A stretch of DNA of 64,000 bases. Source: Fistulifera solaris. Lineage: Eukaryota; Bacillariophyta; Bacillariophyceae; Naviculales; Stauroneidaceae. Location of the stretch: positions 746,501-810,500 of the forward strand of contig AP026145.1 of assembly GCA_030295235.1 (NCBI GenBank). Direction: 5' to 3'. The notes beneath the pieces were generated by a model, which saw only the letters and a program-made list of their open reading frames with translations, was not told the origin of the DNA and did no database searches. Shown piece by piece: positions 1-18,674 of the stretch (within the stretch, counting starts at the first letter, position 1; each line of letters opens with the position of its first letter). Made by a program: the position numbers and the translations under genes.

Positions 1-134
1 GTCAACAAGGATTTGTTGCATCACATTATTGCTGTTCATCCAAAAGAATAACTGTTGCAGCAATAGTATAGAAACGAATACATATTATAAAAGGAGGTGA
101 CAGGGAGCTGCGTAAGGAGGCAAGGCAGTCCAAA

Positions 135-3100
135 ATGACCTCCAAAGATCCTCGCGAATATGTTCGGTAAGTTTCGATGGATTAGCTTGAAGGAATCCAA
201 ATTTTTGTGTCATTTCACCTAACTCCTATTCTATACAGTCTCGCGTGTGAACTACACTTGTCCGGAGCTTTGGAAGAAAGTGATCCGGTGGTAGAGGACT
301 TTTTAGCGAGCCCGGAGGAAACGAAATTGTTTGTGTGGACGTCCGCCGGCAAGATGCACGCCGGTCTTACGTTACCGTCGGCGGCGGTGACAGCAGCCAT
401 TGTCTTTTGCCGCTCCAACGAGTCGTCGACCCTCCAATGTTTGACGTTACCGTCCAGCGGCGACGAAACAACAACGACGACGACCACTTCTATCTTGCAA
501 GCCTTGCAAATTTACACGCAGCAATGTTTCATGCCCACCGTGCAGTCGATTTTGCAGCAAGATGAGGAAGCGCTGCAACGTCTGCAGGATAAGTTGCGAG
601 CTTTAGATGTGGCGCTGCAACAGACGTCTCGTTCCGCGCACTTGCCGTCGATTGAATTGCCCATTCATCCGATCCTGCAAGCGGCCGTGGAAAAGCGAGG
701 AGATGGTGTTTCGTCCTGGGACTGGGAAGCGCTGGGTCTGGCCGAAAAACTGAACGACGATGACTTTCTGAACGAACTGCAGGCCGAAGTCTCGGGCTGG
801 ATTGCGCAAATTCGTACCATCACCACCCTCCAGCCAGAATTGGTGATTCAGGCGTCGGAAGATCAAGCTCCCAACCCGGACGCTGTTGCTCACGAAATGG
901 CGTATTGGACGGCATTGCAACAAGAACTGCAACATGTCCAGGAACAGTTACAGTCACCCGGAGTCGAGGCGACGGTGGCTTTGTTGCGAGAAGCGAAACG
1001 CTTCGTGGCCACGTTGGCATTGGAAAACAACACGGGTCTCGAACAGGCCATGGCGTACGCGGCGGATATGACCCATTTTTGAAGGGATACCCGTTGGCGG
1101 ATTTACAGGCGGCGGTGGATTTTGAACAATTGGCGGCGGTGGTGCAAGCCATCTTCGATCATCTCAACAAGATCCGCTCGAGTCGTTACTACTCACTTCC
1201 CCGTGGGATTCTGTTGTTGGAGGGAACAACGGTCGTTCTTCGAGATGCTATTCAGCATTTGTTGCTTCAAGATAAGCACAAGAACTTCTTGTTCATGGAC
1301 TATGCGGACTATCAACGCAAAATTCGGTATCCTGTCCTGGACGTATTTGTGCAGTTTGAAGATCGTTGGCAGGAATGGAAAGAATTCATGCTGGATCAGG
1401 GCCGACGTCGGAAGGTGACAGGCCTCAGTAAATTGCTGGATAGAATGGTATTGCACCACATGCCATTGAGAGAACGACTGGACCAAATTGATGAATTCCG
1501 CCAAGCTCAGGAGACCCTACGCAATGTTGTTCACACGGTGTTGCGGGAAGATGAACCCACCGCGTTGCAGCAGGTGGAGCACGCTCCTCGGCAAATATTT
1601 GGAAGTATTGCTGTCCTCGACTTGAGTCCAGGAGGGAAACAAGCCTTGGAAACAGCACTAGAAGAGTATGACCTGCAAACCGATGCTATAGAGGAACGTC
1701 TAGCCCGACTCCTCCGTGAAAAACTGGAGGCATGCCAGGTATGTATACATGCGGCTCGGATTTTTGAAAGTTTGATAGCTTTTTTTAACCGTGTGATCTT
1801 TCCGCAGGATGCTGAAGACATGTTTGGAGTATTCGCTCGCTTCAATCTGCTCCTGACGCGAAGCCGAGTACAGTCCGCTGTGAAGGAGTTTCAGATGCAG
1901 CTCATATCGACTGTCGCTGAAGCTGTAGAGAAACTGCAATCGAAATTTACTTTAAAGTACGAAGCGTCGCCGGCTGCCCGCATTTCACGTCTACGAGGAA
2001 TCCCTCCTGTAGCGGGAAAGATTCTTTGGGCGAAACAAATGGAGCGACAAGTTCAAACATTGATGGAGAGAATGAGTGATGTCCTCGGGCCGAATTGGGG
2101 ACAGCAGCTAGAAGGCCGTCAATTGAGCAAAAGCGGCGATGAGCTTCTTTCCAAGCTGGATGCTCGCTCGTATTTCCGGAGCTGGGTGACAGAGTGGGAG
2201 CGCGAACTTTCGTCTTCGGCCCACAATAAGCTCAACTCGTATCCAGTGTTGATTGAGAACCAGCAGGGAAAGCTTGTCGCTAGAGTCAACTTCGATGAAA
2301 GAAGCGAGCTTCTTTTCAAAGAAATACGACACCTAAAGTGGTTAGGTTTTGCAAAGGACATCCCACGCACGTTGGTCATGGTCTCTGACGAAGCTACTGC
2401 TCGCTATTCATATGCAGTGGCAATCAAGACGGCACTTCGCTCCTATCAAGCTGTCCGTGTCTTGATAAGTTCTGAACTAGAGCCACTTGTGATGCCGCAA
2501 CTACTCGAAATTCGCGAAATTATTTCGGAAGCCTTCGATGTGAAGTTATCTACTTCTACGGCTGTTTCCAAGAAACACCGTGTCCGCTGGGATGCAAAAG
2601 AAATGACTGATTGGGTTATCCGCTTGACTGAGTCTGTCACAAAGTTCGAAGATCGAGTAGAGCAACTTCTTCGTGCTTGTGATAAGGTTGATATTGCGTT
2701 AAATTTGATGGAAAAGGTGGATTACAACGCCAACATGTTTCTTGGTGTTTTGAGTAGTATCCAAAAGACAATAGATGAGATGTCGCTAAGTGGCTACTCC
2801 GACCTGGACTATTGGGTTAACACAGTCGGAGACAAAATGGCTGAGGTTCTTGCAAAACGCCTTGAAAAGGCTCTCAAAGGGTGGAACAGGGCACTTCGAC
2901 TCTCGAAGGAGAACTTGAATAGCCACTCAAACGAAGGTAACGAAGTAGATGGCGATATGAATGAGAGAGATGACGGCCTTGAGCTAGCTGTCTTGCCGAT
3001 GCAAGTGAATCTAGAAATTGTTCTCCGCAATCAAGAAATTTCTGCTTCGCCCTCCTTACCATCTGTTAGAGCCCACTTTCTAGACGCGCTGCATGCGTAT

Positions 3101-6100
3101 ATCGGTACCGTGTGTAATTTGCCACGACCGAGAGGCGGTCGTTACGAAGTCTTTGATGGTATTACAGCCAAAAGCTCCAATGATCTAAAAGTTTCGGCAA
3201 ATTGCTTTGATGACTTGTTGAGTTTAGTTCCGGTGGAGGTTGTTTCGGAAGCCTATACCTGCATCGAGCACCACGTCAACGAAGCAGCAGTCTTCGTTGA
3301 CCAATGGTTGGCATACCAGACACTTTGGGATACTCAAGTTCCTGATGTAGCTGCAGCGGTTGGAACCGACGTGCACAAATGGCAAATGCTTCTTGCTGAA
3401 GCTGCAGACGCTCGCGCGACTCTGGATCTATCAGCTTCTGTCTCTGATTTTGGTCTGGTCACAGTAAAGTATGGAAAGGTCCAATCTCAGATAAATTTGA
3501 AGTACGATTCGTGGCAAAAAGAGTTACAAGCTTCATTTGCTACAATTCTGGGACAATGCATCTCCGAAATGCACCGAACAATCACAACTACTAAAACAAA
3601 GCTGGAAGAAACGACTCTTGATAGTGCGTCGACGGACAACATTGTACTCGGGGTTACATTTATTCAGGAAGTGAAGCAAAAAGTCGGTGTTTGGATCAAG
3701 GAACTAGACTTGCTTTGCTCCTCCGAGAAGCAGCTTAGGAAGCAACGGTACTTATTTCATTCGGAATGGCTTGAAACAAGTGTGTTGAAAGGTCTTTACG
3801 ACAGTCTCTTGCAGATTCTAGAGCGTCGCAGCAGAACGATGGAGCAACAAATCCCGCTTTTGCAAGCTCGAGTTGCAACCGAAGACAAGTCTGCTTCGAA
3901 ACAACTTGCTGAATTGGTTGACAACTGGAACGACAAGAAGCCACTAAGGGGAAATATGAGCCCTCCGAACGCCATGGAGCTTTTGGCAAAGTATGAAATT
4001 GACCTTAATAAGGCACACATCCACCAAGAGAATCTAGTTAAAGCGAAGGATGCGCTTGGATTAGAGCACATGGTGCAAGCCAATGACATTATAGCTGCTT
4101 TGAACGAACTGTCCGATTTGAAAGAAGTGTGGCAAGCGATGATGGAACCTTTCGAATCCTTACAACAAATTAAAGATACACTTTGGTCGAGTGTTGTGAC
4201 ACGCAAAATCAAGCGTGGTCTCGATGACCTTCTGGCATCAATGCGTTCACTCCCCAATCGGGTAAGGCAGTACGAAGCTTACACGCATTTGCATGATGCA
4301 GTTAAGGACTTCATTGCCGGACACGGACTAATGTCTGATTTGAAAACCGACGCGCTGAAAGAAAGGCATTGGAAAATGATACTCCAGCGTCTTGGAATTC
4401 GTATTCCTCTTGCGGATCTGACGCTGGGATTGCTTTGGGAAAATGGTGTGTTGACGAGAAAGAAAGAAATAAGCGAAATCTTGTCAATGGCTCAAGGCGA
4501 AATGGCTCTAGAAGTTTTTCTCACCCAAGTTCGCGACCGGTGGACTAAACAAGAACTGGATTTAGTACTTTTTCAGAACCGTACACGTCTCATCCGTGGC
4601 TGGGACGAACTCTTTGCCACGCTCGACGACCACATCAATGGTCTCGTGCAAATGAAGAGTTCCCCATTCTATCGTGCTGTGAGGGAGTTCCAAGAAGAGG
4701 GGAAGCTCTGGGAGGACCGTCTTACCAAGCTCCGAGCTGCATTTGACGCTTGGGTCGACGTACAAAGGCGATGGGTTTACCTTGAGGGGATTTTTGTTTG
4801 GAAGTTCGGATATCAAGGCGCAACTTCCTGCAGAGTGGTCTCGTTTCAAGAGCGTGGATACAGAATTTGTTGCTCTAATGAGACGTATTGCAAACAAACC
4901 AAATGCAATGGAAGTTCTTAATATTGATAACCTCCAGCGAACCCTGGAGAGACTTGGAAACTTAATGGGGGTTATTCAACGTGCACTCGGTGAATACTTG
5001 ACGAAGCAGCGCAGCGACTTCAGTCGCTTTTATTTTCTTGGTGATGATGACTTGTTGGAAATCATGGGAAATTCTGGCGAACCAGGAAAGGTGCTTGCTC
5101 ATATTGGAAAAATGTTCGCCGGTATTGCTGGGGCGCGAGTTGTCTCGGAAGGACTTCCGGAAAACGTTCGGACGCGCTTGGATGCAATGGTCTCGAAAGA
5201 CGGTGAGATCGTACCATTCCACAAGCCAATCGATATAACGGAGACCACGAATGTCAAGGATTGGTTGAAGGATGTCGAAACAGGAATGCAGACAACACTG
5301 GCACTACTTCTCGAATCAGCGGTCCAAGAAGATGACTATACAATTGATACCAGCTTCACAATAGATAATGCAGAGAAATTTGTTGGATGGGCGACGAAGT
5401 TTCCCGCGCAGGTAATGATTCTTGCTACACAGATAAACTGGAGCATGGGAGTCGACAAAGCGCTCCAGGATCAGGATGTTGAACAGTCATTATCATCTTT
5501 CCTAGCAATGTTGGAATGGAAACTTGAAGTCATGGCGAGTACAGTCTTGGAAGAATTACCTTCTGATGCGAGAAAGAAATTTGAACAAATGATCACAGAA
5601 CTAGTTCGTCAAAGAGACATTGTTCGATCTTTGCAAAATGAGGGAGTCAAGAATCCAAAAGATTTCCGTTGGCTTTACCATCTTCGATACCGCTATAATC
5701 CTGCAGCTGAAAATTTATCAGAGAAGCTGGTTGTTATGCTTTCAAATGCATCCTTCCAATACGGATTCGAGTACCTTGGCATTGGGGAGCGGTTGGTCCA
5801 AACGCCACTCACAGATAAGTGCTTTTTGACGCTGACACAGGCCCTTCATTTTCGTCTGGGAGGAAGTCCATTCGGTCCTGCTGGTACAGGCAAGACGGAG
5901 AGTGTTAAAGCCCTTGGAGCCGCATTAGGACGGTTTGTGCTAGTTTTCAATTGCGATGAAACATTTGACTTCAGTGCAATGGGACGTTTACTTGCGGGGC
6001 TTTCGCAAGTGGGTGCGTGGGGATGCTTCGACGAGTTCAATAGGTTAGAAGAGCGCATTCTGAGTGCTGTCAGCCAACAAATCTTGACCATTCAGCAGGG

Positions 6101-9100
6101 TCTACTCGGCCGAAAATCAAGTGTCGAGTTACTTGGAAGAAATATTTCTTTGCACAGTAATGTCGGCATTTTTATAACGATGAACCCTGGATACGAAGGT
6201 CGTAGCAACCTTCCAGACAACCTCAAGAATCTCTTTCGGTAAGTCTATTTTTGGGCATAACGCATACCTTGCACAAATGTTGTCTTCTAAATTCTTTTAC
6301 AGGTCGATGGCAATGGTGGTCCCAGATCGCAAACTGATTGCTCAGGTTATGCTTTATAGCCAAGGGATTGTGACGGCTGAAAGACTTGCAGGGAGAGTTG
6401 TGGACTTGTTCTTATTTTGTGAAGAGCGTATGTCCAAACAACGGCACTACGATTTTGGACTGCGTGCACTGAAGACCCTGTTAGTGAGCGCTGGTGCTCT
6501 TAAGCGCAAAGCACTAGAGGGAAAAGGTAGCCTCTCTGGCGACGATCTTGCGAGGGAAGAAGAAGCTGCGCTTATAGCAGGAGCCTGCAACAACGTCCTT
6601 CCAAAACTTGTTGCTGAAGATATGTCTCTCTTCACTGAGATATTGAGTGAAGTGTTTCCTGGTGCTCAGGTCACCAAGATGGAAGACGAAACCGCCCGCG
6701 AACACATTATCGCCGTCTGCAGAGAACATCAGCTTGTATCGGAGACCGTCTTCGTTCAGAAGATACTTCAACTAAAACAAGTTATCGACTCGCGTCACGG
6801 CATCATGGTGGTGGGAAAGTCAGGTAAATCGGCAGCTTTGAGAGTGTTGCTCGCTGTTCTCGAAAAACTTGATGCGACCAAAGGTGAGCTGTATGTTATT
6901 GATCCTAAAGCAATGAGCAAGGACCGTTTATATGGTTCTTTGGACGGAACAACGCTTGAGTGGACGGACGGTGTTGTGACGAGTTTGCTTCGAAAAATCA
7001 TTGACAATCAGAAGGGCGAGGCTGATCGTCGGCATTGGATTGTTTTTGATGGGGACGTCGATGTAAGTACGAGAGATCATTAACGCGGTTCTGTAATATG
7101 GATGTCTTTCCTAATCTTTTCGTCGTAGCCTGAATGGGCCGAGAATCTGAATTCGGTACTTGATGATAACAAAATGTTGACCTTGCCCTCGGGAGAAAGA
7201 ATTTCGATTCCTGATAATGTTCGCATTATTTTGGAAGTTGACAATCTTTCCCATGCAACACCAGCGACAGTTTCGCGTTGCGGCATGGTCTGGTTTAGTG
7301 ATGATTGTATTTCAACTGAGATGGCGCTCAGTCACATGATTGATTCACTTGCAATAGACAACCTGGTCGAAGGGGTAACACAGAGCAGCGAAATTCCGGC
7401 CGCACAAACTCAGTTTATCATGGCAATTAAGCCATTGATACACTCTGAGAGGACCTCGTCTCTTGTTGTCGACGCTCTTGAATTTGCTTTACACGAGAAA
7501 CACATCATGGATACATCTAGAGACCAACTTTTGAAAAATCTTTGCTCCCTGCTCACCCAGGGGATCAGTCTTGCTGTGGAGTATGACGAAAACCATCCAG
7601 ACTTTCCTATCACAGGAGAACACATGGAAAAATTTGCAAAGCGCTGGATGCTTCATTCATTACTTTGGGCTTTTTGTGGTAGCGCTTCTTGGGAAGTTCG
7701 CAAGAAATTCAGCGATATGCTAGTAAGGACGAGCGGTATCATGCTTCCTGACGCAAATAATTGCGTATTTGATTACCGTGTTCGTGTTGACAATGGTGAA
7801 TATGAACCATGGAGTGATAGTGTACCAAGAATGGAGATTGAAAGTCACCGTGTTGCATCAAGCGATGTAGTTATTACGACAACCGACACAGTAAGACACT
7901 CTGAGGTCTTGGCTGGTTGGTTATCGAAACGGGTGCCTCTTATTTTATGTGGCCCCCCTGGTAGTGGCAAGACCATGACGCTTACAAGCGTCCTCCAAGC
8001 GTTTCAAGGCGTTGTTCTGGCTAGCTTGAACTTCTCTTCAAGGACCACCCCAAAAATTATATTGAAGACATTCTCGCAGTATTGTTCCTATGTGCGACGG
8101 GGAAAAGACGTTTATTTGGAGCCATCTCAAAACCTGGGTGACAACACTTGGCTTGTTGTATTCTGCGATGAAATAAACCTTCCCGAAAAAGACTCATACG
8201 GGACTCAGCGGGTGATTATGTTCATGAGGCAGCTGGTGGAACATGGTGGTTTCTGGAGAGGTGACAACATTTGGGTGAAGATCAATCGAATTCAGTTCGT
8301 CGGTGCATGTAATCCTCCCACCGACGCTGGCCGAGTCGCTATGTCGCACAGATTTCTACGCCATGTTCCAGTTCTTCTAGTCGACTTCCCTGCAAAAGAT
8401 TCGTTATTGCAGATTTACAGGACTTTTAACGGTGGCGTGATGAAATTATTTCCTAATCTTAAGGGCGAGACAGAAGCCATGACGGAGGCTATGGTCGAAG
8501 TGTACCTGGAAAACCAAAAGAAATTTACCCCGGAAATTCAGCCGCAGTACTTTTACTCCCCCTCGCGAACTGAGCCGTTGGGTAAGGGGGGTTTTCGAGG
8601 CGGTGAGGGATATCGACCATGGTTTGACAAGAGAAGAGCTTGTTCGAGTGTGGGCTCACGAGGCCCTCCGGTTGTTTGCCGATAGATTAGTCGAAAAGGC
8701 CGACCAAGAGTGGTGCAGCAATAAAATTGACGAAGTTGCTCGAAAGTGGTTCGCTGGAGTCGACTTTGATATCGCATTGCAAAGACCTATTTTCTACACG
8801 ACTTGGCTAAGCAAGGAAACAAAACGGGTGGACCGAGATGAACTCAAATCTTTCCTTGCTGCTCGCTTGCATGTGTTCTACGAGGAGGAGCTTGATGTCC
8901 AGTTGGTCGTCTTTGACGAAGTTCTTGAACACATTTTACGAATTGATCGTGTATTAAGACAGCCTATGGGCCACCTCCTTCTCGTTGGCGACTCTGGTGC
9001 AGGAAAAACTGTACTCAGTAAGTTTGTGAGCTGGATGAACGGACTCAACATATTCCAAATTAAAGCACACTCCCGCTATGGAATGGAGGATTTCAATGAA

Positions 9101-12100
9101 GATCTTCGAAATCTCATGCGGAGAGTAGGTGTCGAGGGAGAGAAGATATGCTTTATTTTTGACGAAGCAAATGTCTTATCTTCTGGTTTCATCGAGGCTA
9201 TTAACGCTTTGCTTGCAAGTGGTGAAGTTCCTGGTCTGTTTGACGGCGAAGATTTCTCTTCACTTATGACCTCCGTCCGTGACAGTGCAATGCGGGATGG
9301 CACGATTCTTGACTCTGAAGAAGAATTATGGCGCTACTTTACAGCCATTGTTCAAAGAAACCTCCACGTGGTTTTTACTGTCAATCCAAGTGGGGGCGAT
9401 TGGAAGAATAGGTCAACAACAAGTCCTGCCCTTTTTAATCGATGTGTCGTCGATTGGTTTGGGACGTGGGGATCCACAGCGATGGCCCAAGTCGGCAAAG
9501 AGTTTACTCTTCGCATTGATATGGGAGATTCTGAAGCTGAGGGAGGATCTTGGGGTATGGGAGATGGCGAGGAGCTGATGAAGAAAGTAGCCGATGTGTT
9601 CGACGGGTCGGGTACCATGAGGCAGGCCGTTGTTGCTGCTCTTGTAGCCATCCACGATATTGCTAGGTCGACTGCCGAGACAGCGGCTAATGAGACACGT
9701 AGTATTGCGAGAACATTTTTGTCACCGCGTGATTACCTAGCGCTTATCGAAAACTTTGTTTCTTGCCTTAACAAACGCCGAGAACAAGTTGAAGATGAGC
9801 AGCTTCACGTGAATGCCGGCCTAGATAAACTTCGACAAACCCAGGAAAACGTTGCCGAGCTCAAAAAGGGGTTGGGGGCCAAGACTGAGGAGTTACGTAG
9901 GAAGGAAGCGCTAGCGAATGAAAAACTTCAACAAATGGTGGCCGATCAGAATGTTGCTGAACAGCGAAAGGCCGAAGCGGAACGCATGAGTGCCGCCGTC
10001 GAAAAACAACAGATTCAAATTAATCAAAGAAAGGAGGAAGCACAAAAGACCTTGACGAAGCAGAACCTGCTCTAAGGAGCGCACAAGAGAGTGTGCGCGG
10101 CATAAAGAAGCGAGATCTTGACGAAGTGCGAAATCTAGCGCGTCCTCCGGCCAACGTAAAATTGACATTGGAATGTATCGCCATCATGCTTGGAGAAAGC
10201 AAAGTGGAATGGGCTGATATTCGCAAGGTGCTAAACAAGATTGACTTCATCCCCAGTATTATCAATTTCGACGCGGATAATCTCTCTTTGAAGCAGATAA
10301 ATCTTGTGAAGGAGCAGTACATAGACGGAAATCCTGATCTTACGGAAGAAAGTGTGACAAGGAGTAGCAAGGCGTGCGGCCCCCTTTACAAATGGGCCGA
10401 ATCGCAAATAAGATACAGCACAATTTACAATAACATACAGCCGCTGAGGGATGAAGTTGAAAGATTAGAGCAAGAGGCGTTAGTTGCCAAGGAGGATAAG
10501 TCAAAGATTGAGGGCGAAGTGCAAGATCTTGAGTCATCCATTGCTCAATACAAGACAGATTACGCTACTTTGATTCGTGATGTCGAGGCGCTGAAAGTAG
10601 AAATGGAAGCGGTCACCACCAAAATCGCTCGTGCGGAAAGCTTACTTCACAGTCTAGAACACGAGAGCCAGCGTTGGGCGAAAAGCTCAGAGGCATTTCA
10701 AACGATCATGAAGAGTCTCGTAGGCGACGGTTTGCTGATGGCTGGATTCCTCACCTACGCAGGCTTTTTTGACTTTCATAGCCGATCAAATATGATGAAT
10801 CAATGGAAAAAGGCGCTGGATTTACTGGACATTGATTTTCGCCTTGATCTCGGCATTGTAGAGTCTCTCAGTACAGCATCTCAGCGGCTTACTTGGGAAA
10901 GCGAAGGACTTCCAAGCGATGGACTTAGCCTTGAAAATGCTGTTATTTTGGATCACTCGACAAGGTTCCCCCTTATTATAGACCCTTCCGGTCAGGCCAT
11001 TGCTTTCGTCTTGAAAAAGTATTCGAACGAAAAGATTCAGACAACAAGTTTTGTGGATAAGGCTTTTGCCAAAACTCTTGCGAGCGCCGTACGTTTTGGA
11101 ACAGCACTCCTGGTCGAGAACGTCGAAACAATCGATCCTATATTGAACCCAATTTTGAACAAAGAACTTCAGCGCACCGGTGGTCGAACTCTAGTTCGCA
11201 TTGGGACAGAGGAGGTCGACTACAGTCCTAAGTTCAGAATTATTCTCAGCACAAAGAATCCAGCCGTCCACTTGACACCAGACCTCTGCTCTAGAGTAAC
11301 GTTGGTGAACTTCACTGTTACGCCTGACAGTCTTCAAAGTCAGAGTCTAAGCCAACTCGTTAGGGCTTTGAAGCCGGCCCTCGAATCACAAAGAGCTGCA
11401 CTATTAAAGCTTCAAGGTGAACAAAACGTAAAATTACGTGGTTTGGAAGACCAAATGCTTTCGAAGATCAGCGCTTGTGAAGGAAGTATTCTAGATGATG
11501 ATAGGGTTGTTGAAGGAATGGAAATCTTGATGAAAGAAGGCGCGCAAGTTGAAGAGCAGATTTCTCACAGCGCTGAAGTCATGAAACAAGTGCACAAAGC
11601 GGTTGCTCAATTCGAACCTTTTTCTTCCTTGTGTCGTAATCTGTTCATCTTGCTAGAAGCCCTCCGTGAGTTGAGCTTCTTGTACGAATTCACTGCAACG
11701 ACATTTATTTCCATCCTGCAACATGTCCTCAGCCAAATTCAAGGTGGAGACGACGACGCAAAAGTGCTTGAGGAGCTCAGACGTAGTCTCTTTTCCGAGA
11801 CCGTAGCTCGTATCGGTCGCGGCCTTCAAGTTGAAGACAAACTTGTTTTTTCCATCCTTTTGGCTCGGATCTTTAAGAACGACAAGTCCATTGGCGCAGA
11901 TACGGCAAGCTCTTCCTCTGACTTGGTCAAAATTATTGTGGAACAATTTGGCGAAGCTTTCCTTTGGCAAGGGCGTGGTCTGAACGACCTTGTCGACGTT
12001 ACTGAACTCGAGATCAATTCGACAACTCCTCTTCTTCTCTGCAGCGCACCAGGTCATGATGTGAGTGGAAGAGTCGAGGCGATGGCACGTGAATTGAACA

Positions 12101-12972
12101 AAGATCTCGACGCCGTCGCAATGGGCAGTGCTGAGTGTTTTGATATTTCGGAACAACTTGTATCGGTGGCTGCGAAACGTGGAACATGGGTCATGCTCAA
12201 GAACGTACACCTGTGCGCCGACTGGCTCCGCGAATCGTTTGTCAAAAAGCTTCAATCACTCAGCCCCGCAAATACACACAAAGATTTTCGCATCTTCATT
12301 ACGAGCGAAATCAATCCGCGTCTCCCGACCGGTCTACTTCGTATCTGTGATACGATTGTTGCACAGGCGCCTACAGGAATTAAGGCTTCCATGACGCGTT
12401 TCTTTACCAGCATAGCCAAAGAACGATTTCATTTACAAGTTCGCAGTCGTCTTTATTTACTGCTGGGTTGGGTCCATGCAGTCATTCAAGAACGTCTTCG
12501 CTTCGTACCAAACGGCTGGACCGAGGCCTATGAATTCACCGAAGCGGATGCACTTCATGCGTTGGATGTGATAGATAGTCTGTTGGAGGATGCGGGTCAA
12601 TCACTCGATCCCGAAAAGTTGCCGTGGGACGCTATACGCTCGACGTTACAGCGAGGTGTTTTTGGTGGTCGTGTGACGACGCCTCGTGACCAGCAGGTTC
12701 TCGACGATTTGATTGCGACCGTTTTTGTTCCGGAAGCATACAATGTGAACTTTGTTGTTGTCAAGAGCGACAACGTCGTATTACCCGAAACCACCACCCG
12801 CGAAACGTGTTTAGATTGGATTTCTCACCTTCCGGAGCACACACCGCCGACTTGGATTGGCCTGGACGCGAGTGCCGAAGTGGAACGAGAACAGAGGATG
12901 GCCCGATCAGTGAACGAGAAAGTCTCGATTCTGCAGGAAAAGTGTGACAGTGTTGATGGCAATGAGAACTAA
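135..12972 (+). CDS. DYNC1H1-like: Cytoplasmic dynein 1 heavy chain (four apparent frameshifts)
   Basis: Minus-end-directed microtubule motor subunit. Four coding exons: 135-166 (starts MTSKDPREYVR), 239-6238, 6303-7062 and 7129-12972, all with GT-AG introns that keep the frame and fit the family alignment. The tail, linker and six AAA modules follow the cytoplasmic dynein 1 order. Walker A motifs are seen in AAA1 (GPAGTGKT, about 5874), AAA3 (GPPGSGKT, about 7951) and AAA4 (GDSGAGKT, about 8988), with Walker B GCFDEFN in AAA1. The stalk and microtubule-binding region lies at about 9790-10620. AAA2 has a shortened P-loop, GKSGKS, at 6814-6831. Single-base lesions interrupt the frame: T run 1076-1080 (base missing), ATTTTTG 4790-4796 (extra base), C run 8558-8562 (extra base) and 10052-10053 (base missing). 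About 4,210 residues; it stops at the end of AAA6, so the usual C-terminal domain is absent. The family is certain; intactness is not. Confidence 0.95.
167..238 (+). other. Intron 1 of the dynein gene
   Basis: GTAAGT donor at 167 and a TATACAG acceptor ending at 238. Splicing joins CG to T (Arg) and gives the conserved continuation LACELHLSGAL. It leaves a first coding exon of only 32 bases. Confidence 0.85.
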
Positions 12973-13321
12973 TATAAACATTTCTGTTCGAAATGAAACT
13001 AAATTACATTCTTTTAATCTTAGCTGCATCGAAAGAACGAGATAAAAAGGTAATGATGCAATGTAATTCTGGCTCTATAGTCTAGCCGGCTACTGAGTAC
13101 AGAACTACGAGGAAAAAAGGTTAGGGCCTATAAATAATGATGTATGACCGCTACGACGAGAAGAGCAATTATGCTTAGCAGAGTTGAATATGATTTTTGC
13201 CAACATCATTCATTATTTTGATTATTGCAGCCTTGATTGGAGCAAGCATCATTTCTCCCCTTACTCTCTTCTCCTTTAACATGCCAAAGATCAATACTAG
13301 CCCCTTATTTGAAGTCATTCC
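12973..13321. other. Intergenic, AT-rich
   Basis: This follows the dynein stop. I looked for a continuation of the dynein C-terminal domain in all three forward frames and found none, only short ORFs with no family resemblance. Confidence 0.5.
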
Positions 13322-16251: not shown

Positions 16252-17796
16252 ATGTCGAGCATTCGCACCAACCGCCCTTCACCCTTCAAGGATTCTTCGA
16301 ACATAGTAGCAACAATCGATGTCGAATCGGGATTTTCGTCTCATACTTACGAAAAGCGGTTGCTGGAAAAAGCACGACAGATCTGGGCTCGAAAAGCCGC
16401 CACGGCCAGTGCGATCGCCATTGTCGTATTGCTCGTCGTGGGCGTTTCCTTTTTCGTCTCGTCACGACGTGGTCTTGGTCGCAATCATTCTTATTTGCCA
16501 TTTCGACGGCTACCAGTGTCGGATACGGTCATATTCATACACCACGAACGACTCTATTTCAACTCTTTTGTCTCTTTACATACTGGTGGGTTTCGCGCTG
16601 CTGGCGTTGGTGGCGGCCCAGCTTTATCAGTACTTCACTCTGGACGATGCGATCGAAACATCCGAAACTAAACGACCCAGCGGTCGGGCCTCGCCCACAA
16701 ATCCTACAAGGTCCAAACACAGCGAAATATTCGGTCTCTGGGAAGGAGAAATCAAAAGGGCGTTTCGTCAAACACATCATGAGCGAGCCCTTTCCGTCGG
16801 CGTCCCTCTCTTTCTCGTCTTTTTCAGTGGTACGATCGTCATTGGAACCGCCGAAGAATGGAGTTTTCACGAAGCATTGTACTTTGCCGTAGTATCGTCT
16901 ACGTCCGTGGGGTACGGTGATTTTACTCCCAAAACGACTCTGAGTATTTGGGTCACCTGCATCTGGTTGCCCTGCAGCATCCTCTTCATGTCCATCAGCA
17001 TGGGGACGATGGCTCAGTGGTATTTAAAAGATTGGCGGTACAGAGCCAGCATTCTGCGGTTTGCTCATGCAGGAGGACCGCACGTATTACCCACGGTACT
17101 TTTATTTGCTGGGGCGCTTCTGATTGGGCAGATTGAGGAATGGACGTTCCTGGAATCCGTTTATTTTGCGGTGGTGAGTTCCTGCACCGTTGGCTACGGG
17201 GATTTTCATCCGAGCACGACCATTGGCATGACGCTAACGATGATATGGCTGCCTTGTAGCATTTTGTCCATCTCGGTGTATATGAGTGTGGTGGCCCGGC
17301 TGTTTCTGCGTCTCAGTAACCAAATGAATGAAGAACTGGACCGCTGGATTCGACAAAGAAACACCCATATCGTGTCCGCGTGTGGTGGGGTCATCGTCGT
17401 GGCACTCCCGCTACTTCTTACATTACTGACGGGTGCTTTTCTGGTGGGGCACGCGGAGCGATGGTCGTTCGTGGAATCCGTCTATTTTGCGTTGGTGAGC
17501 TCTTTTACAATTGGTAAGTCAACAGATGTTTATTTCTCATAGTCGAAACTGCACACCGACTGACGATCGCACTTTCACTAGGCTACGGAGATTACCATCC
17601 GAGGACGACGTTGGGCATGGTTTTCACGTGTGCGTGGCTGCCTTGTAATCTCGTTTTTACTTCTGTCTACATGGGCTCGATTGCACAGTGGTATTTATCC
17701 TGGAGCGCAAAGAAGATACAACGATTGGAAGACCAACTGCGGCGACATGGATCGGAGGAATTTGACACCGAGAAAACTATTATTTCTTCTTCGTAA
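16252..17796 (+). CDS. Four-pore (4 x 2TM-P) potassium channel in one polypeptide
   Basis: Membrane channel of about 495 residues built from four tandem M1-pore-M2 modules. The selectivity filters are TSVGYGH (16512-16532), TSVGYGD (16901-16921), CTVGYGD (about 17183-17203) and TIGYGD, the last split by an intron at 17514-17581 (donor GTAAGT, acceptor ACTAG). Modules 2-4 share a pore helix of the form EEWSF/ESVYFAVVSS before the filter and an M2 beginning IWLPCS or AWLPCN. Module 1 is more divergent (TWSWSQSFLFAISTA). No EF-hand, RCK or cyclic-nucleotide domain is visible; the tail is a short charged helix (KKIQRLEDQLRRHG). Two one-base losses, near 16466 and 16574-16580, shift the frame inside module 1. 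Usual channels of this fold have one pore per subunit (tetramers) or two (K2P dimers), so a single chain could form the whole pore. That last step is inference. Confidence 0.85.
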
Positions 17797-18032: not shown

Positions 18033-18674
18033 TTAAGCACAGCATCCTTTCTTCTTCTTGCCTCCATCGGACAGAGAGATGGTTTGACCGGCACTCAACG
18101 AGCTGCCCGCCGCGGCTTCCTCGGCTTGCATGTTACGGCGCGACATGAGACGGTAGATTTCCGTCAAAATTCGTTGAAAGGCAGTGTCCACACCACTGGC
18201 ATCCAACGCCGATGTCTCAATGAACGCCAGATTGTGCTGTTCCGAAAAGGCCATCGCTTCGTCCGTTTCTACGGCACGCAAGTGTCGAAGATCGGACTTA
18301 TTACCCACCAACATGACTACAATGTTGGCTTCCGCGTGATCTCGAAGTTCTTTCAACCAACGCTCCACATTTTCAAAGGTCGGGTGCTTGGAAATGTCGT
18401 AGACCAACAAGGCACCGACCGCCCCGCGATAGTAGGCGGACGTGATCGCACGGTAACGTTCTTGTCCAGCGGTATCCCAAATTTGCGCCTTGATCGTCTT
18501 TCCTTCCGCCTGAATGGATTTTGTGGCAAATTCGACACCAATCGTCGACTTGGATTCCAAGTTAAACTCGTTTCGGGTGAAACGAGACAGCAAATTCGAT
18601 TTGCCCACGCCACTGTCGCCAATGAGCACAATTTTGAAGAGGTAATCGTATTCTTCGTCAACGCGCGATCCCAT
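18033..18674 (-). CDS. RAB11: Rab11-family small GTPase
   Basis: Membrane-trafficking GTPase of recycling endosomes and the trans-Golgi; 213 residues, intact, no intron. The P-loop is GDSGVGKS (residues 19-26), followed by the switch I segment TIGVEF, switch [13 protein letters not shown], and the guanine-specificity motifs NKSDL and ETSALD. The effector region and the phrase [19 protein letters not shown] are typical of Rab11/RabA. The hypervariable tail is polar and ends KKKKGCCA, with two cysteines for geranylgeranylation. The start at 18674 gives the usual Rab11 amino terminus, [14 protein letters not shown]. The nearest upstream gene, a secreted lipase, is divergent. Confidence 0.95.

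Follow-up and report, generated by a model that had tools for sequence, protein, structure and literature searches.

We found that a single gene of the diatom Fistulifera solaris encodes four tandem 2TM-P pore modules, each with its own GYG filter. Potassium channels need four pore loops, which are usually contributed by four or by two chains. In the window—i.e., the whole 64,000-nucleotide stretch of DNA that was analyzed—all four lie in one gene, and a homeologous copy with the same four modules is present on another contig (C22), the two conceptual proteins being 90% identical. The overall account that we favor is a likely one: a 492-aa protein with the module order A-B-B'-B'', which arose from a two-pore ancestor, uses one chain per pore, and probably provides a leak-type K+ conductance. 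We also lean, if more cautiously, toward the view that it is a natural K+-selective channel in which four 2TM-P modules, each with a canonical filter, follow one another in a single chain as A-B-B'-B'' and which works as a monomer.

The gene starts at the ATG at 16252, and its stop codon ends at 17796 on the plus strand, giving 492 residues when its segments are joined at the protein level. Its parts are listed below, the limits of each module being its hydrophobic peaks.

16252..17513, plus strand: exon 1, in three frame segments
16252-16455, 16455-16577, and 16577-17513, plus strand: the frame segments of exon 1, one base being read twice at each join
16411..16618, plus strand: module 1, A type (M1, P loop, M2)
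16450..16454, plus strand: frame break 1, a T5 run that is T6 in the homeolog
16512-16532, plus strand: filter 1, TSVGYGH, within module 1
16575..16577, plus strand: frame break 2, a TTT run with one base too few for homology to continue, common to both homeologs
16787..16996, plus strand: module 2, B type
16901-16921, plus strand: filter 2, TSVGYGD, within module 2
17069..17296, plus strand: module 3, B' type
17183-17203, plus strand: filter 3, CTVGYGD, within module 3
17390..17667, plus strand: module 4, B'' type, interrupted by the intron
17507-17513 and 17582-17592, plus strand: filter 4, TIGYGD, split, within module 4
17514..17581, plus strand: phase-1 GT-AG intron of 68 bases, splitting the first Gly codon of GYG in filter 4
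17582..17796, plus strand: exon 2, with the end of filter 4, the last M2, a short C-terminal tail, and the stop codon

Directly downstream of the channel gene, at 18033-18671 on the minus strand, lies an intact Ras/Rab-family GTPase (Ras family E 1.3e-62).

The presence of four modules was supported at both the protein and the DNA level. Four separate stretches of the conceptual 492-aa protein matched Pfam Ion_trans_2 (E 3.6e-52 for the protein as a whole; 174.6 bits, the cut-off being 22.5), and a whole-genome profile search of the raw DNA gave four separate Ion_trans_2 matches at the locus, each above the family cut-off. The protein has eight hydrophobic peaks, two per filter, and four GYG filters (GYGH, GYGD, GYGD, and GYGD). 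When a relaxed filter pattern was applied to the six frames of the window, three matches were obtained (filter 4, split by the intron, falls outside this count), compared to 0.08 on average over 50 mononucleotide shuffles, which excludes a chance origin of the filters. The sequence-only reading had proposed four 2TM-P modules in one gene, and this was borne out by the four Ion_trans_2 stretches, the eight hydrophobic peaks, and the same four modules in the homeolog. Pfam Ion_trans also passed its cut-off (30.3 vs. 25 bits), its best stretch covering profile positions 175-233 of 241, which is the pore end only. Among solved structures, the best match was KCNK9 (E 4.5e-19), and PDB matches also included 9pik and TOK1 entries. 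Neither a voltage sensor nor a nucleotide-binding domain was detected from Pfam profiles and hydrophobic peaks, and no EF-hand family was among the seven Pfam families found for the conceptual protein up to E 1. The chain continues for about 42 residues beyond the last hydrophobic peak.

A single open frame spans modules 2 and 3 and the first half of module 4, and the linkers between hydrophobic peaks are short, at about 24 residues between modules 2 and 3 and about 31 between modules 3 and 4. This leaves no room for separate genes, and modules 2-4 as independent genes were ruled out accordingly. Module 4 is intact only after removal of the 68-base intron, while module 1 needs two frame changes. 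That module 1 nevertheless belongs with module 2 is indicated by a paralog on contig C23, a 697-aa stop-to-stop frame in which two modules, with GYGH and then GFGD, follow each other in the same A-B order. This paralog makes a separate gene for module 1 unlikely, and it contradicts the case, raised by the sequence-only reading as a possible refutation, of a module 1 that is part of a neighboring gene. It also bears on the first filter: the difference between GYGH and the GYGD of the other three stands, but it is not peculiar to this gene, as the first pore of the two-pore paralog has GYGH as well.

The intron at 17514-17581 was upheld as a GT-AG intron of 68 bases, with a counterpart in the homeolog that differs by two 5-base gaps. 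An intron at the same place and in the same phase was also seen in pore A of a two-pore paralog on C36 and in pore B of a paralog on C1, and is absent from modules 1-3 and from the C23 paralog. The shared position may mean that the intron is old or that insertion at this site happened more than once. The two paralog introns at the filter Gly codon are as follows.

C36 (L013), about 2048-2112, reverse strand: filter Gly-codon intron
C1 (L019), about 2466-2540: filter Gly-codon intron

As to how such a protein would work, one chain would fold its four modules round one axis, its TxGYG loops together making a single asymmetric K+ filter, i.e., a pseudo-tetramer with a pore predicted to be K+ selective. 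One chain per pore is favored since the four canonical filters equal the number that one pore needs, and the short linkers among modules 2, 3, and 4 are compatible with a single ring. Given the short tails, and since no voltage sensor, nucleotide-binding domain, or EF hand was detected, the protein probably provides a K+ leak, with gating perhaps at the filter.

Of the other explanations, the one that survives best accepts the four modules and places the chain in a dimer or a higher assembly, with either two whole pores side by side, as in Trk/Ktr/HKT dimers, or a single pore to which each of two chains gives two loops, the remaining modules being structural. Trk-type chains dimerize, and the closest solved relatives of the diatom protein by sequence are the K2P and TOK channels. 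Plant TPKs, too, are reported as dimers in excerpts of PMC8619664. All four filters, however, are intact K+ signatures, so that none of the loops looks as if it had been given over to a structural task, a point that counts only against the shared-pore version and not against two complete pores. We consider such an assembly unlikely, though by no means negligible.

A plausible source for the modules lies within the same genome, of which 51.7 Mb in 61 contigs was searched. Channel genes were found on the paired contigs C21/C22, C23/C24, C36/C37, and C5/C6. The homeolog of the C23 paralog, on C24, is split over several frames, and C36 and C37 hold three pore pieces each, two of which, in C36, fit one intron-split pore. 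A third copy of the two-pore paralog, apparently broken into several frames, was seen on a small 46.9-kb contig (C53, 38500-43500). None of the other channel loci examined in the genome had more than two pores per locus, these pore counts being lower bounds from a filter pattern that misses intron-split pores.

Modules 2-4 share 45-46% identity with one another and only 20-22% with module 1. In module trees of 12 rows each (C22_m2 and C22_m3 of the homeolog excluded), module 1 grouped with module 1 of the paralog (99/98). Modules 2, 3, and 4 grouped with module 2 of the paralog at 83/95, and the A-type and B-type modules of the paralogs fell on two sides at 88/88, neither value being decisive. 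A pairing of modules 1 and 3, as expected from an ABAB doubling of a two-pore gene, was rejected (p-AU 0.003), as was a single clade of all four modules of the gene (p-AU 0.012). The grouping of modules 1 and 3 with module 1 of the paralog was only borderline rejected (p-AU 0.052), and a clade of modules 2-4 without module 2 of the paralog gave a p-AU of 0.51. On these sequence comparisons, the module order A-B-B'-B'' is favored, and the simplest history seems to be that of a TPK/K2P-like two-pore channel whose second module would have been tandemly copied twice more.

We then consider the genomic setting of the two copies. Identity to C22 is 83-94% over most of the window, one 586-base piece being at 75%. 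It amounts to 94% for window positions 1-13057 and to about 83-89% for most of 15927-64000; gene conversion or exchange between the subgenomes may account for the high identity of the first 13 kb. The genome gave 23 silicon-transporter matches (best E 3.5e-222), which indicates a diatom; of 14 control genomes, one gave a signal, and this was below the cut-off. The pairing of homeologous contigs is consistent with an allodiploid genome such as that of Fistulifera solaris, a species described in excerpts of the literature as allodiploid (PMC13276009) and as having 42 pairs of homoeologous chromosomes (PMC5935921).

The two frame breaks in module 1, pointed out by the sequence-only reading, are indeed present, but, judging from the homeolog and from a control in a dynein gene, they are probably not features of the gene. 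Break 1 is private to the window: with T6 at this site, the homeolog keeps one frame from M1 across the first filter. Break 2 is present in both homeologs, and two more one-base indels occur in the C22 copy alone. When one base is added at break 2, an ungapped match to the paralog is obtained (FQLFCLFYILVG vs. FQLYTIFFILMG). Across 32.8 kb of aligned CDS-like sequence between the contigs (hand-chosen intervals that include some noncoding edges and the channel itself), there were 73 gaps, among them 32 of one base, 14 of three bases, and 9 of six bases. These gap lengths, together with frame changes in several long ORFs, suggest that one-base errors are frequent in the assembly.

The control is a cytoplasmic dynein heavy-chain gene that lies upstream at 764-12969 and has several one-base indels, some of them restricted to one homeolog and one or more common to both. 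Around position 10040, the two copies each hold 14 bases, one fewer than the 15 required by homology to residues 1995-1999 of 27pt_A, a solved Dictyostelium-type dynein chain. The bases surrounding the AAAAG run of the dynein gene are identical in both copies and leave no room for an intron. Since the dynein heavy-chain gene is unlikely to be dead in both copies, a shared one-base loss also occurs in a gene that is likely alive. Given the absence of break 1 from the homeolog, the shared dynein loss, and the restored paralog match at break 2, both breaks are probably one-base assembly errors, break 2 with less certainty than break 1, and translation would be continuous across both. An intron at break 2 was ruled out by reading, because homology runs through both sides and no spare sequence is left.

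Real frame breaks would instead make the gene a decaying pseudogene in both subgenomes. Break 2 is found in both copies, the homeolog has two extra private breaks, and the channel gene holds 3 one-base gaps in about 1.5 kb, above the average for the CDS-like sequence (32 in 32.8 kb). Against this stands the pattern of substitution between the copies, which at codon positions 1/2/3 amounted to 32/19/89, summed over seven segments that were set, with their frames, after the frames had been seen, and the first of which was compared only from about 16287. The third position was the commonest in all seven segments of the composite frame (p<0.05 in five). Over 457 codons of the two homeologs, with those adjoining gaps or before 16297 left out, dN was 0.054 and dS 0.309, corresponding to a dN/dS of 0.17, and there was no stop. 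The third-position excess flanks each break and, with the low dN/dS and the open frame, argues that both sides of each break are under protein-level constraint. In addition, the hand-chosen CDS-like sequence has 32 one-base against 14 three-base gaps, and the upstream dynein gene has the same kind of breaks, one of them shared. We therefore regard decay in both subgenomes as quite improbable. More improbable still is a genuine break 2 that yields a module-1 fragment plus a three-module protein, or that is crossed by a ribosomal frame shift: both copies have break 2, and the frame read after it is already open before it, but a programmed frameshift was rejected under the slippery-heptamer rule for want of a canonical heptamer at CTC TTT ACA, one missing base restores the ungapped paralog match, and a shared defect of the same kind is seen in the dynein gene, for which neither scenario would be plausible.

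If the single-chain, four-module reading is right, each of the four loops of this simplest scaffold, 2TM-P, could vary separately from the others, as happens in sodium and calcium channels. A dimeric two-pore channel would then have become a single-chain asymmetric pore through the copying of one module, which is another route than the 1-3/2-4 pattern of CNGK. With a two-pore relative carrying the same A and B modules in the same genome, the evolution of a single-chain pore would become directly testable.

Judged by its sequence, the diatom channel belongs with the TPK/K2P channels, with which it shares homologous 2TM-P modules, TxGYG-type K+ filters, the combination of A-type and B-type modules, and two-pore paralogs in the genome, but it fails the two-pore count, as both it and its homeolog have four modules per chain and not exactly two. 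Many plant TPKs carry C-terminal EF hands, whereas none was detected in the diatom protein. K2P channels have an extracellular cap, for which the roughly 19 residues between the M1 peak and the first filter of the diatom protein are too few. Fungal TOK channels, to which the PDB matches noted above extend, also have more than one pore unit per chain, a 6TM unit being joined to a 2TM-P unit to give two pores (excerpts of PMC7576140).

Nav, Cav, and CNGK channels follow the same single-chain pseudo-tetramer logic; they are, however, built as 4 x 6TM with voltage-sensor helices, while the diatom protein is 4 x 2TM, with eight peaks. CNGK, which is K+-selective according to the title and abstract of PMC4749565, is described in excerpts of PMC7576140 as a four-repeat channel whose repeats pair 1-3 and 2-4, in contrast to the A-B-B-B pattern here. 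According to the excerpts of PMC8619664, a single-pore structure is usual for SAR organisms, and according to those of PMC7576140, no tandem Kv-like or CNBD channels were found in diatoms; no survey of the present gene was noticed in the excerpts of either paper. Among the literature matches listed, a scope with most subscription journals outside it, we recognized no report of a four-module 2TM-P channel with GYG filters. Short-peptide pattern scans, with 12 and 92 matches scanned in genome_contigs (bacteria, archaea) and 1 and 82 in viral_contigs, confirmed no relative in these bacterial, archaeal, and viral contig collections, a result with no bearing on other diatoms.

Four M-P-M units in one chain are also the plan of the Trk/Ktr/HKT transporters. 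The filters of that group rest on single glycines, whereas the diatom protein has four full TxGYG or CxGYG filters, and no TrkH-type family was among the Pfam matches of the conceptual protein up to E 1. These single chains of four M-P-M units, which form a superfamily of K+ and Na+ transporters (excerpts of PMC7918770), had been overlooked in the sequence-only reading, whose limit of one or two pores per chain for the 2TM-P fold was thus overstated. In Trk/Ktr/HKT, the architecture works with simplified filters; the diatom gene would be its version with the standard K+ filter.
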